In this document: positions 16,234 through 21,052 of the stretch, piece after piece
How the letters are laid out: each line of letters begins with the position of its first letter
Numbering within the stretch: the stretch's first letter is position 1
Source: an uncultured Saprospiraceae bacterium
GTDB taxonomy: Bacteria > Bacteroidota > Bacteroidia > Chitinophagales > Saprospiraceae
Length of the DNA: 41,919 bases
Reading direction: 5' to 3'
Assembly: GCA_937974625.1 (NCBI GenBank)
Contig: CALJVJ010000129.1
Span: forward strand, 1 to 41,919
The notes under the pieces: model-generated
The model's database searches: none
Seen by the model: only the letters and a program-made list of their open reading frames with translations
What the model was told of the DNA's origin: nothing
Position numbers and translations under genes: made by a program

Positions 16234-18057
16234 TTACTGACTCATCAAATATCCAAACTCTTGTAATCTGGTCTTAAATTGAGTCAATTTTTTCTTTTCT
16301 ATTAATATATGGTATCCTTCTGCTTTGTAGCATAAATTTTTCAATTTAGTATCTCTAGCTATTAATTTTATTAAGGCTGGATTATCGGCTGGAATTTTGT
16401 AAACGATTATAGAAGATATTTTTTCTAAAGGGTCAATCTTTTGATGTAATTGGTCGAAAAAAGTAGTCCAGTTAGCAGGTAATTCGTCGGTTACTGATTG
16501 CTTGAATAATTTAATTTTATCCGATAATTCTTTTTTACCAGAAATCCCTTTCAAAAAGATAGAAAAATCTGTTTTGAATCGATTGGGTGTTACTTTTTCT
16601 GTATAAGGTTCCAAAACAACTGCTGCGGTTGCGTCATCTTTATCAGAAATGATAGTTAAAGAATCTGAGGAAAGTTCTATTTTGGAATGCCTAATTTCCG
16701 CAGGTGCATCATAACGAGTCCGCTGGCCTGACACATAAGCGCCTAAACTATTTAAGCGGACATATTTTAAGCCATCATAAGGGGAATCACAGGTTTTTCC
16801 TATAGTAGCAGCGTCTACTTCTTCATAGGCAATATCTAATAAACCAAAAGCAGCAAAAAGGTATAGCGTTCCTTTTAAGGTGGGAATGGTAATGGCTCTG
16901 TCATAGCGTTCATTGTCAATGTAATGCTTTTGTTCTGTGTATGCATACCGCTCATATTGAACGACCGCTTCGTATTCATAAAATAATTTATTCCTTGCCG
17001 TATAACTTTTTATTGGTCGGATATCAACGAAATTAAATTTCAAGTATTTTAGTAGGTTTTCAACCGAAACCCATCCATTTTCGGGTAGTTCGGAAAGTAA
17101 ATGTACAAAGTGAGGTTCTACTTTTTCTACATAATAAGTCTCTGCATAAGCAGTCCCTTTTAGATAAGTCAATAGTTTATATACAGAGGTATAACTATTC
17201 GCATAGTAAGATTGAATTAATGTTTTAATTAAAATGTTATGGTCAGAAGTACTTGAAGCGGCACCCATGGTGCTAATTAATCCTGCTACTAAATTAGTTC
17301 GCATCAAGCCCAACAACTTCTGGTCCTCACCTGGGTAAAATTCTGCTAAATTTAATTTGCGTTGCATTTTACCAAGAGAACTAACTTGGGGTTTTCCTTT
17401 AGCGGAAGTCTTAATATTCCCCTGTTGAGAATAGGCGAGAAGTCTTGGCATTTCTAACATGATATCAATTTCTCCTCGGTCGTAAATATGAGAAACGGCA
17501 GGAGTTTCCGTAACTGGATTAAGTTTTGAACCAGTAGGCACATCGTAATAAATGGTAATAATTCGCCGAACTGAAGGTTCGATATAAAGTGTATAGTCTG
17601 GCGTTTTCAAAGAAGAATACCGATGAATGTTTACATATCTGAAAAATTTAAAAATTTGTTTTACGACTACTTGTTTATACCCGCTATAGCCACTTTTAGA
17701 GGCTTCATATACCTTAAAGCCGAGGCTGGTTTCGATTTCTGTTTGAGTCATTTTTTCTTCCCAAACTAATTCATCTAATAATTGAGCAACCTGTTTTGGT
17801 AAAATAGCTTTGAACGCATCAAATAGATTTTTATTTAAGTAGGGAAGGGTAACAAATAAGGCTAAATCTCGCTTTGTCCAACTGTTATAAGTGCCAATCA
17901 AAATGATTTTGTCTGGTACATCCTCTTGCATTAGCAAGGTCATATTCTTCTGCACGAAAGTTCTTGTTAGCCCGAAAAAACTTTCCTTTAGGTCTGCTAA
18001 GGTGTATCCTTTCTCAAAAGCATCAGCTACTAATTCATGTTGGTTTGCTATGTACAT
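16234..18057 (-). CDS. 607-aa protein, possible XPB/Ssl2-like helicase-associated partner of SNF2
   Basis: The product is 607 aa, apparently cytoplasmic, with no Walker motifs. I do not recognise it with certainty. Its plan resembles XPB/Ssl2-like helicase-associated proteins (the Helicase_C_3 type): a winged-helix-like stretch near 87-115 (LPKQVAQLLDELVWEE), a middle TLKGTLYLFAAFGLLDIAYE segment followed by VRLNSLGAYVSG, and a C-terminal alpha-beta unit (IIVYKIPADNPALIKLIARD, then LIEKKKLTQFKTRLQEFGYL). It lies 178 nt downstream of the SNF2 helicase gene on the same strand, and most of that gap is one large inverted repeat. A partner role in DNA remodelling or repair is inferred from position and the weak resemblance. 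Confidence 0.6.
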   Translation of the reverse strand: MYIANQHELVADAFEKGYTLADLKESFFGLTRTFVQKNMTLLMQEDVPDKIILIGTYNSWTKRDLALFVTLPYLNKNLFDAFKAILPKQVAQLLDELVWEEKMTQTEIETSLGFKVYEASKSGYSGYKQVVVKQIFKFFRYVNIHRYSSLKTPDYTLYIEPSVRRIITIYYDVPTGSKLNPVTETPAVSHIYDRGEIDIMLEMPRLLAYSQQGNIKTSAKGKPQVSSLGKMQRKLNLAEFYPGEDQKLLGLMRTNLVAGLISTMGAASSTSDHNILIKTLIQSYYANSYTSVYKLLTYLKGTAYAETYYVEKVEPHFVHLLSELPENGWVSVENLLKYLKFNFVDIRPIKSYTARNKLFYEYEAVVQYERYAYTEQKHYIDNERYDRAITIPTLKGTLYLFAAFGLLDIAYEEVDAATIGKTCDSPYDGLKYVRLNSLGAYVSGQRTRYDAPAEIRHSKIELSSDSLTIISDKDDATAAVVLEPYTEKVTPNRFKTDFSIFLKGISGKKELSDKIKLFKQSVTDELPANWTTFFDQLHQKIDPLEKISSIIVYKIPADNPALIKLIARDTKLKNLCYKAEGYHILIEKKKLTQFKTRLQEFGYLMSQ

Positions 18058-18076
18058 TTAGTAATTTTTGAAGGTA

Positions 18077-18235
18077 GAAAGTTATAGAGGTTGAGGGGCA
18101 GAAAGGTAAGGGGGGCTTGCTGTCTTTTACTACCTTTTCTTCCAATTTGCTTCCTTTTATTTACCATAATTTTCTTTTATATTTTCAGTAAGTTGTATCT
18201 ATGAACCCTTCTGCCTTTCCACCTCTGAACCTTTC
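18077..18235. repeat. Large imperfect inverted repeat between the SNF2 and 607-aa genes
   Basis: Positions 18077-18106 pair with 18206-18235 at 26 of 30 positions (counting G-U), leaving a loop of about 99 nt. The right arm ends exactly at the SNF2 stop codon. The arms are purine-rich on one side, with AGAGG, GGGGC and AGAAAGG blocks. They resemble the hairpin at 38060-38125, suggesting an interspersed palindromic element. It may act as terminator, attenuator or mRNA processing site. Confidence 0.55.
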
Positions 18236-21052
18236 TTAACCCAATATGTACTCGATATCCTCTTCCGATAAAGCTTTCAAAGAGCCATCTGCGGAAATTA
18301 CATTATCGAACAGTTCTTTTTTCATTTGTTGTAAAGCTAAAATTTTCTCTTCGATACTGCCTTCGGTGATGAGTTTATAGGCGAGCACTTTATTTTTTTG
18401 TCCAATTCTATGTGCTCGGTCAATGGCTTGATTTTCAGCAGCTACATTCCACCAAGGGTCGAAGATGAAAATGGTATCGGCAGCAGTTAGGTTTAAACCA
18501 GTTCCTCCAGTTTTCAAGGTCATTAAAAAGACCTTGCAATTTGGGTCATTTTGGAAACGATTAACTAAACTTTGTCGGTCTCTAGTTGCCCCAGTCATAC
18601 TTACGAAGTCAATACCCAATTCTTCTAATTGGTCACAAATCAGCTCAATAGTTGCTAAGAAATTGACAAAAACTAAGGCTTTATGACCATTTGCCACTAC
18701 ATCCACCAATTGTTCTTGTAGCAATTCTCGTTTTGGAGAAGGGATTTTACCTTCGCTATATTTTTCTGGAGTAGAAGCAATTTGCCGAAGTTCATTTAAG
18801 GCTTGGAAAATAAAGAACCGAGATTGCTGCATACCTTTGGTAGCAATAGATGTTTCAATTGCTGCCTTATAAAAACTACGACGACTTTCGTATAATTTTC
18901 GTTGTTTTTCAGACATTTCAATAAACAACGTTTGTTCAATTTTATCAGGTAAATCCTTAAGTACATCTTTTTTCAATCGACGCAAAATAAAAGGGAATAT
19001 CTTTTTTCGTAACTGCATAATAGCCCCTTTATCATTATCTTTTTGAATGGGAGCTAAATAGTTTTCGCTAAACTGATGCACGGTTCCAAACATGCTCGGA
19101 TTCAAGAAACGGAAAAGCGAGTAAAGTTCTCCTAAATTATTTTCAATCGGGGTTCCACTTAAAGCCAATCGATGTTGACCATTTAAAAGCATGGCGGCCT
19201 TCGTAGTTTGAGCTTGCAAGTTTTTGATGTTCTGCGATTCATCTAAAATGACGTAGAAAAAGTTTTCTTCTTGGAAACTTTCGATATCGTTTCTCATCAA
19301 TGCATAAGTCGTAAAAATAAGGTGATGTTTTCGAGCATCAACAATATTTCGACTACTCCCATAATAGGTATAAGTGGTTAATTGAGGTGCAAATTTCTCG
19401 ACTTCTGACCGCCAATTAAATAACAAACTTCGAGGCATCACAATTAACGTCGGCAATTGCTCTTTTGGATATGCACTTGCTAAAATAGCTATGGTTTGCA
19501 AGGTTTTACCCAAACCCATATCATCGGCTAAACAACCACCCAAGTGCTTTTCTTGTAAGTATTTTATCCATTTATACCCATCTTTTTGATAAGGGCGGAG
19601 CTTAGCATTCAATTTTGGGAACTTATACTTTTTACTACCCAACTCATTAAACCCTTCAAAAATAGCTCGGGACTTTTGAAATTGTTTGCCGGTTACTTTT
19701 TCATTAATTAAATCCTCGACTAGGGGTAAATCGAAAAAGGATAGTTCCACTTTACCTTGTTCTTTTTTTCTAAAAATCCGTTCTAGTCTTTTGACATAGG
19801 CATCATTCATCAAAGCGTGCGTTCCATCGCTTAATTTGATATAATTATTTTTTCTTAATTGAGCTATTGCATCGAATAAATCTATTTTTTCTTCACCAAA
19901 AGTTAGGTCAACACTGCCTTCCAAAAAGTCAATGGAATGAGAAAGATTCATATTGACTTTAGGTGGATTGGTAGAAATTTTATAAGATTTTAATTTCTCT
20001 GCACCAAAAAACTCAAATTGGGTCAATAATTCTACTAATTCATTATAAATGAAACCACTGGCTACTTCTCTTGGAATAATATATAAGCCATCTTCAAAAA
20101 CGACAACTGCTCGTTCTTCTTTTTTCTTTCTGGGTGTATGTTTTTTTAATAATTTACTGACTAAAGCGGTAACTTCTTCCAATGGGTCTTGCTCAATAAA
20201 TTTGATGGTGATTTGTTTTTCTAGCTCATTAATTTCTGCATATTTAAACAAATCAAATTGTTCTAAAACACTGACTGATAAATTAGGTAAAGATTGTCCG
20301 ACGCGCATAAATAAAGAATCATCCACGTCTACCTTTTCAAAAACTAAACTCGGTTTAGCATAAATTTTATCATCACTATGCACCACTTTATACCCTTCAA
20401 ATGATAGGTCAATGTTCTCCAAGTAAGAAAATAATAAGGAAAAGAAAATGGTGGTATCTGTTTCTTTAATCTCTGTTTGGAAATAACCCAAATTTTTAAA
20501 GCCACTTCCAAGTGGTTGAATATCAAATAGTTCCTTGCCAACTATAGCGGTTTCTTCGTTTAGTAATAAAAAATCGTTATGCTGTTGATTATTGATAATT
20601 AAAGCTACTTCACTTTTCCAAAATGGTTCGGCAGTAGCGAGTCGTTCAATATTGTCTTCTTTGTTTAATTGAATGGCAAATCTTCCCAAATCTTCAGAAA
20701 AGGTTAAAGTTTCCATTTCCGAATTAACTAAATTTTGCGTCCTTTTTAATAAGTCAATTAGATAATCATGCTCAGCGAGATAGATGCGTTCTGCTGGTTT
20801 TTCCCAATCAATAACAAAACTATTTTTCTCTGATATTTGCTCAATTGACTTTAATAAATTCCGAATGGCCCCACTATATCCTAGGTAACTAACATCAATA
20901 TTTTTTCCTTTACTATCGACTATAGAAAGGTAGGCTCCATAATCATCAAAATTAATTTGGAAATAAATTTTAGGATGGGTTTTGGCTTTTGTATCGCCTG
21001 ATTTTTGGCGGCGAAAATGTTCGAAGACTGAGTTCTCTGGCATAGCGCGCAA
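18236..21052 (-). CDS. SNF2/SWI2-family DNA helicase (translocase)
   Basis: The 938-aa ATP-dependent DNA translocase has an unrecognised N-terminal half (about 1-480) of mixed alpha-beta composition. The SNF2 core starts near LRPYQKDGYKW (486). Walker A is DDMGLGKT at 510-517, and the motif II box is DESQ at 604-607 rather than the commoner DEAH/DEAQ. Motif III is SGTP at 632-635. The C-terminal RecA lobe has TGGTGLNL (848-855) and DRAHRIGQ (878-885). This is the bacterial HepA/RapA-like SNF2 group. No nuclease, methylase or other defence gene is nearby, so a housekeeping role in remodelling or repair is more likely than restriction. The 607-aa gene follows on the same strand. Confidence 0.9.
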   Translation of the reverse strand: MRAMPENSVFEHFRRQKSGDTKAKTHPKIYFQINFDDYGAYLSIVDSKGKNIDVSYLGYSGAIRNLLKSIEQISEKNSFVIDWEKPAERIYLAEHDYLIDLLKRTQNLVNSEMETLTFSEDLGRFAIQLNKEDNIERLATAEPFWKSEVALIINNQQHNDFLLLNEETAIVGKELFDIQPLGSGFKNLGYFQTEIKETDTTIFFSLLFSYLENIDLSFEGYKVVHSDDKIYAKPSLVFEKVDVDDSLFMRVGQSLPNLSVSVLEQFDLFKYAEINELEKQITIKFIEQDPLEEVTALVSKLLKKHTPRKKKEERAVVVFEDGLYIIPREVASGFIYNELVELLTQFEFFGAEKLKSYKISTNPPKVNMNLSHSIDFLEGSVDLTFGEEKIDLFDAIAQLRKNNYIKLSDGTHALMNDAYVKRLERIFRKKEQGKVELSFFDLPLVEDLINEKVTGKQFQKSRAIFEGFNELGSKKYKFPKLNAKLRPYQKDGYKWIKYLQEKHLGGCLADDMGLGKTLQTIAILASAYPKEQLPTLIVMPRSLLFNWRSEVEKFAPQLTTYTYYGSSRNIVDARKHHLIFTTYALMRNDIESFQEENFFYVILDESQNIKNLQAQTTKAAMLLNGQHRLALSGTPIENNLGELYSLFRFLNPSMFGTVHQFSENYLAPIQKDNDKGAIMQLRKKIFPFILRRLKKDVLKDLPDKIEQTLFIEMSEKQRKLYESRRSFYKAAIETSIATKGMQQSRFFIFQALNELRQIASTPEKYSEGKIPSPKRELLQEQLVDVVANGHKALVFVNFLATIELICDQLEELGIDFVSMTGATRDRQSLVNRFQNDPNCKVFLMTLKTGGTGLNLTAADTIFIFDPWWNVAAENQAIDRAHRIGQKNKVLAYKLITEGSIEEKILALQQMKKELFDNVISADGSLKALSEEDIEYILG

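Follow-up and report, generated by a model that had tools for sequence, protein, structure and literature searches.

A SNF2 gene and its downstream neighbour

We have analysed a stretch of 41,919 nucleotides (the window) from a draft genome, focussing on two neighbouring genes of its minus strand, which are followed by topA. The closest relative of the downstream protein in a named record is from an uncultured Saprospiraceae bacterium (Bacteroidota), with 85% identity. Both genes are open throughout. The features are as follows.

18236..21043, minus strand: SNF2-family ATPase gene, the first of the pair (the 938-aa ORF, 18236-21052, opens at TTG 21052)
19628..20965, minus strand: N-terminal half of SNF2 (ca. 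residues 30-475), without a Pfam family, which marks this SNF2 clade
18239..19627, minus strand: SNF2 motor (ca. residues 476-938); closest solved cores SSO1653 (1z63), Mot1 and CSB
19502..19525, minus strand: Walker A motif DDMGLGKT, invariant in 29 sequences
19232..19243, minus strand: motif II, DESQ
18058..18235, minus strand: 178-bp gap between the two genes
16234..18057, minus strand: partner gene, 607 aa, predicted p52/Tfb2-like
17533..17874, minus strand: predicted N-terminal helical and winged-helix-like region (ca. residues 62-175); the alignments with p52 start near residue 80
16690..16905, minus strand: predicted winged-helix-like domain (ca. residues 385-456) with the conserved motif SxYDGLxYxRLTxLGAY, shared with an XPB-adjacent homologue
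16429..16689, minus strand: predicted clutch-like domain (ca. residues 457-543), fold of the XPB N-terminal domain and p52 clutch
16237..16428, minus strand: predicted C-terminal domain (ca. residues 544-607), fold like the Tfb2 C-terminal domain that binds Tfb5/p8

The SNF2 start is better placed at the ATG at 21043 (codon 4), near where most of the homologues begin. The motor is beyond doubt (PF00176, E 1.5e-68; PF00271, E 1.9e-20), with Walker A and motif II intact. An earlier note, made from the sequence alone, had described a SNF2 gene with a novel N-terminal half and a DESQ box, followed by a 607-aa protein that matched no domain firmly, and this description is correct. In the 29 SNF2 sequences aligned D604, E605 and Q607 are invariant and S606 is at least 90% conserved, while the first 475 or so residues have no Pfam hit. 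The motor is not an XPB by its domains, as neither the PF13625 N-terminal domain nor ERCC3_RAD25_C was listed for it at E up to 5, while the two bacterial XPBs scanned show both. The 607-aa protein had no Pfam hit beyond chance (best E 0.12) and no NCBIfam or PADLOC hit. However, it is not a chance ORF, as the 36 homologues aligned with it have 21-85% identity and come from several phyla (partners with unknown residues or not over 540 aa were left out of this alignment). The gap between the genes, wider in this genus, holds GAAAGGCAGAAGGGTT-like runs that are also seen in the relative L019 (L numbers denote individual loci, G numbers genomes). A Bacteroidota-type promoter pattern occurs in the window no more often than by chance, and none of its 3 sites lies before the pair.

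Conservation and co-occurrence of the pair

That the two genes are not neighbours in relatives had been set in advance as a condition that would overturn the idea of a unit, but they are neighbours. We scanned one genome for each of 84,980 species with the partner profile, a scan that rests on two short peptide patterns, and obtained 39 loci in Saprospiraceae, Cyclobacteriaceae, Desulfobacterota and other proteobacterial assemblies, Caldithrix, Kapaibacteria, Verrucomicrobia, Fusobacteria and one weak Gemmatimonadetes fragment. In 31 of the 39 the SNF2 gene lies directly upstream on the same strand. Of the 8 others, L046, L055, L077 and L080 begin at a contig edge. The SNF2 N-terminal half is found elsewhere in the draft genome for L044, L055, L065, L077 and L080 (for L077 probably the copy beside L058, from the same assembly), and was not found for L046 (a 55% complete assembly), L052 or L081. 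Pairing is not without exception: the genome of L052 (G655) has a partner but no SNF2 N-terminal half, and its partner gene (L052:108-2957) lies near a divergent NACHT and pentapeptide-repeat gene, while in that of L044 (G002) a sulfatase-type ORF precedes the partner and SNF2 is on another contig, so the pair may be split there. With 7 further Bacteroidota loci there are 38 same-strand junctions in 41 loci examined, 26 of them with a gap of 30 bp or less, or an overlap. No third gene is conserved, the largest cluster of neighbours spanning 4 of the 41 loci. In the loci compared topA is next door only within the genus of the window, and four genus mates have topA without the pair beside it.

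The two genes also occur together. In a sample of 395 Bacteroidota genomes the partner is strongly present in 8 (E 1e-37 or better; two weak matches, E 0.002 and 0.0075, were counted as noise) and the full N-terminal half of this SNF2 in 8. They are the same 8 genomes, in 4 families. The next SNF2 match falls from E 7e-94 to 6e-17, and 31 further genomes that match only after position 284 of 461, at E 6e-17 or weaker, were taken as other SNF2 proteins. A random draw would give this coincidence with a probability of 7e-17, a figure that ignores kinship, and only a few candidates per genome were scored (up to 3 for the partner, 4 for the SNF2 half and 8 in a search of relatives), so that a further copy could be missed. 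Among 100 relatives SNF2 was found in 8 and the partner in 10, including all 8. The two extra ones are a gene cut by a contig edge in a 55% complete assembly and a 177-aa remnant without SNF2 nearby (L028:7553-8086). Another decayed copy is a broken pair on a Fusobacterium polymorphum plasmid (L108). Pairwise distances of 28 SNF2-partner pairs (three extra partner copies were left out) correlate at r 0.92, and 0 of 5000 permutations reached this value. Such a correlation also follows from shared descent, and no species tree was used as a control. The most conserved part of the partner is residues 385-607, with a mean conservation of 0.50-0.55 against 0.29-0.41 before it.

Predicted structure and sequence links of the partner

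The second condition named beforehand, fold similarity to helicase partners, was also fulfilled, although on a predicted model only. AlphaFold2 on 37 sequences gave a model of the partner with pLDDT 87.5 and pTM 0.80. A Foldseek search against 350,542 PDB chains put TFIIH p52/Tfb2 chains of human and fungal complexes in ranks 1-18 (best E 1e-5) and XPB/Ssl2 or p52 chains in ranks 19-32 (several of these chains are named as p52/TFB2 in the records, the rest were assigned by us from the entries). Whole-chain TM-scores are low (0.15-0.23 for ranks 1-18), so the match with p52 rests on the domains and their order. A second comparison of these matches with VIA-align aligned residues 457-542 with the XPB N-terminal domain (Z 8.9, rmsd 2.8 over 83 residues) and 544-602 with Tfb2C (Z 5.0, rmsd 2.3 over 55 of 58 residues, a weak Z taken alone). 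Longer alignments run from about 80 to 603 against p52 42-460 with flexed domains (Z up to 8.6, rmsd about 20), and the best row outside TFIIH is at Z 5.1. The order of winged helices, clutch and Tfb2-type C-terminal domain is that of p52. In human TFIIH, the transcription and DNA-repair complex in which p52 steers the XPB motor, the p52 clutch (306-399) has the same fold as the XPB N-terminal domain and the two form a pseudo-symmetric dimer (PMC6422496), so the same stretch matching both is what a p52 clutch should do.

By sequence the partner could be linked to proteins encoded beside bacterial XPB. A search of plasmids gave 13 records, among them Rhodococcus “helicase-associated domain” proteins (E 2e-9) and a Gloeocapsopsis protein (E 1e-6) encoded 1 bp upstream of a gene annotated as DNA repair helicase XPB. 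That XPB has the PF13625 N-terminal domain and ERCC3_RAD25_C, and its neighbour a PF13625 match of E 2e-7, just under the cut-off. BLASTP of the two partners aligns 223 residues (E 2e-13 for the pair), including the shared SxYDGLxYxRLTxLGAY motif, and profile-profile comparison with a set of 6 that holds the Gloeocapsopsis protein gives 99.9%, E 9e-36 over 439 columns. Only this one of the 6 stands next to XPB. Of 4 members of the set scanned, 3 hit PF13625 (Helicase_C_3), 1 of them over the cut-off. In one alignment used (A6), one row (L106) starts inside an ORF and another (L101) carries extra, probably untranslated, upstream sequence. The window protein itself has no PF13625 match at E up to 5, 1 of 37 family members has one at E 0.036, and among 198 Bacteroidota genomes none passed the PF13625 cut-off, one reaching E 0.006. 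A genome with the SNF2-partner pair also holds a 698-aa ORF with a PF13625 match under the cut-off (L136, G497:C105:8647-8886; E 2.6e-6), perhaps a lone XPB-type homologue.

Bacterial XPB genes are often paired with such Helicase_C_3 proteins. Of 32 plasmid records with XPB we opened 9, all bacterial and none archaeal, of which 7 are annotated, and in all 7 a helicase-associated or homologous gene lies within 4 kb. It is on the same strand and adjacent, or separated only by an ORF of about 100 aa, in Deinococcus (3), Paenibacillus (1) and Gloeocapsopsis (1), divergent in Actinomyces, and 3.5 kb away in Tsukamurella. The ORF of about 100 aa stands between XPB and the helicase-associated gene in three Deinococcus plasmids and one Actinomyces plasmid (L125:5759-6088, L126:5762-6061, L127:5755-6102, L128:3220-3519). 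The one tested had no Pfam hit, a result that does not say whether it is a p8-like subunit. Of the two unannotated records, the profile finds such a gene next to XPB in Arthrobacter but only XPB itself in Nonomuraea. In 148 Desulfobacterota genomes PF13625 passes its cut-off in 3, each time as two hits about 2.6 kb apart, XPB and then partner, and a fourth genome has one hit under the cut-off.

These XPB-paired partners match the Gloeocapsopsis set (95.1%, E 3e-8) and, weakly, p52 in the clutch (56%, E 1e-4). However, other comparisons failed. Against three p52 C-terminal sequences neither the window family (hhalign, 0.07%) nor the XPB-adjacent set gave a match, the window family compared directly with the XPB-paired set was not significant (1%), and PF03849, the Pfam model of p52, found the partner gene in 0 of 32 partner-bearing genomes (6 of the 32 gave chance hits elsewhere, as did 6 of 14 control genomes). 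Homology to the XPB-adjacent protein is therefore firm, that to the wider group of XPB partners is by a chain, and that to eukaryotic p52 rests on predicted structure.

A proposed motor with a p52-like partner

We believe that the best explanation, and a likely one, is a dedicated two-subunit dsDNA motor in which a p52-like clutch subunit regulates SNF2 in place of XPB. What the data demonstrate is a conserved and co-inherited gene pair, an intact SNF2 motor, a partner with a predicted p52/Tfb2-like architecture, and the homology of this partner to a protein encoded next to bacterial XPB. The complex and its role are inferences from these. By analogy with p52, which with p8 stimulates the ATPase of XPB and caps its speed (PMC7708078), the conserved C-terminal half of the partner would bind SNF2, hold the motor and gate its ATPase, while the variable N-terminal winged-helix half would bring the motor to DNA or to another protein. 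In this view lineages with XPB use this partner type on XPB, and here SNF2 has taken the place of the motor. Neither binding of the partner to a motor nor its effect on one was assayed, and no complex was modelled. There is also evidence against the analogy. The SNF2 N-terminal half, which in the 395-genome sample is found only with the partner, shows no similarity to the partner profile (0.08%) and no PF13625 hit, so the TFIIH-style clutch dimer has no visible second half (the half was not compared with an XPB N-terminal profile other than that of Pfam, and the SNF2 model is of lower quality, pLDDT 79.9, pTM 0.51). In addition, XPB of TFIIH with p52, p34, p8 and XPA had no measurable translocase activity and the whole core complex was needed (PMC7708078), so a two-protein translocase does not follow from the analogy. 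The proposal of the earlier note, an XPB/Ssl2-associated-like protein with a layout and C-terminus resembling Helicase_C_3 proteins that forms a DNA-remodelling pair with SNF2, is supported by our results and sharpened. The partner is more precisely p52/Tfb2-like than XPB/Ssl2-like, and the fold that its clutch domain shares with the XPB N-terminal domain explains the original suggestion.

Compared with the XPB-p52(-p8) module of eukaryotic TFIIH, the pair also has a motor plus a p52-type partner with its domains in the same order, but the motor is SNF2, no second clutch domain was seen in it, no conserved third gene could be p8, and homology to p52 is not detectable directly by sequence. Compared with bacterial XPB and its Helicase_C_3 partner (Deinococcus, Paenibacillus, Desulfobacterota, Gloeocapsopsis), a motor gene again stands beside a partner gene, and the partners are homologous by profile through the Gloeocapsopsis set, but the motor family is different. 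The SNF2 motors of DpdE, ZorD and pilus_reg_Snf2 type share the motor core and part of the region before it, although the SNF2 of the window scores far under the NCBIfam cut-offs, and we know of none of them with a p52-like partner. What would be new is the exchanged motor; a motor with a clutch subunit is already known. In the papers searched we saw no description of a SNF2 with a p52-like partner, or of bacterial p52, although a Tfb2 label appears among CRISPR-adaptation associations (PMC10910872), so a Tfb2-like annotation in prokaryotes is in print in another setting. A further possibility, about as likely as not, is that the XPB-p52 module has bacterial relatives in which the p52-like clutch subunit is the constant part and the motor is exchangeable, XPB in some phyla and SNF2 in others. 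The pair would then be an undescribed bacterial DNA-opening machine of excision repair or transcription, and p52-like subunits would be older and wider than eukaryotes. If our reading holds, p52-like subunits are widespread in bacteria, pair with XPB there as well and have also been joined to a SNF2 motor, which would give a two-protein system, free of the other TFIIH subunits, in which to test how a clutch subunit controls a dsDNA motor, and it bears on the origin of TFIIH.

As to purpose, a housekeeping role in opening or clearing DNA (excision repair or transcription complexes) is more likely than anti-phage defence. The neighbour families shown are mostly metabolic or housekeeping, and among 87 neighbouring proteins no Pfam family recurs in more than 3 and no PADLOC family matches more than 2 (25 families shown in each case). 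For this set five loci were left out as near-duplicates, as were ORFs outside 90-900 aa, and 18 of the 105 proteins then listed, mostly ORFs cut at contig edges, were dropped by hand. In one genus (G111, G131, G227) the gene 14-16 bp after the partner belongs to one cluster (L093:7382-9103 and its mates in L094 and L095) whose member in L093, from G111, is a DEDDh exonuclease, GIY-YIG and UVR-motif protein. This excision-repair-like nuclease is a lead to function and points to excision repair, but it is a single lineage.

An anti-phage defence pair is the likeliest of the alternatives, although we consider it unlikely. SNF2 helicases are parts of Zorya, DISARM, Dpd and other systems, and the patchy distribution (10 of 100 relatives, 8 of 395 Bacteroidota) over several phyla, which suggests horizontal transfer or repeated loss, could be that of a horizontally transferred defence module. 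The motor scores with the PADLOC models of DpdE (441 bits over residues 388-927) and ZorD, and single neighbours score with models such as PtuB, SspH and mads. XPB-type homologues without XPB beside them sit on plasmids, among them those of Cupriavidus and Polaromonas, near Wadjet (annotated in L103:8041-14660, with a similar ORF order in the unannotated L106) or Hachiman genes (L109:12840-13601), and a defence role of these lone members is possible. However, the best PADLOC match of 37 members of the partner family is only E 0.0094, SNF2 is far below the NCBIfam cut-offs (ZorD, 236 of 1500 bits), and no relative was found in phages, nor in viral contigs by a pattern-limited scan. Defence and a p52-like complex are not exclusive, as the same complex could serve defence. 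Also unlikely, and again not exclusive with a p52-like partner, is a RapA-like factor that recycles stalled RNA polymerase, with the partner as the polymerase-contacting subunit. The SNF2 fold would fit, RapA being the best-known bacterial SNF2, but the RapA model (PRK04914) gave 18.9 bits against a cut-off of 576 and the partner resembles p52 instead. The least likely alternative is that the partner is a separate DNA-binding regulator that merely shares an operon with SNF2 and resembles p52 by the common winged-helix plan, since, although winged helices are common, whole-chain TM-scores are low and no interface was predicted, the clutch and C-terminal domains match XPB NTD/p52 and Tfb2C, a homologue is encoded 1 bp from XPB, and the same 8 of 395 genomes carry both genes.

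The partner also varies in size and number. In four proteobacterial or Desulfobacterota assemblies and in Caldithrix (L065, L066, L067, L068, L070) it is 850-873 aa long, with a Cys-rich N-terminal extension visible in the four sequences inspected, and one of 37 family members has a HEAT_2 hit. Four loci have two partner genes around one SNF2 (L048:8102-9898, L054:1216-3027, L074:413-2473, L099:11252-13441), which may mean partner heterodimers.
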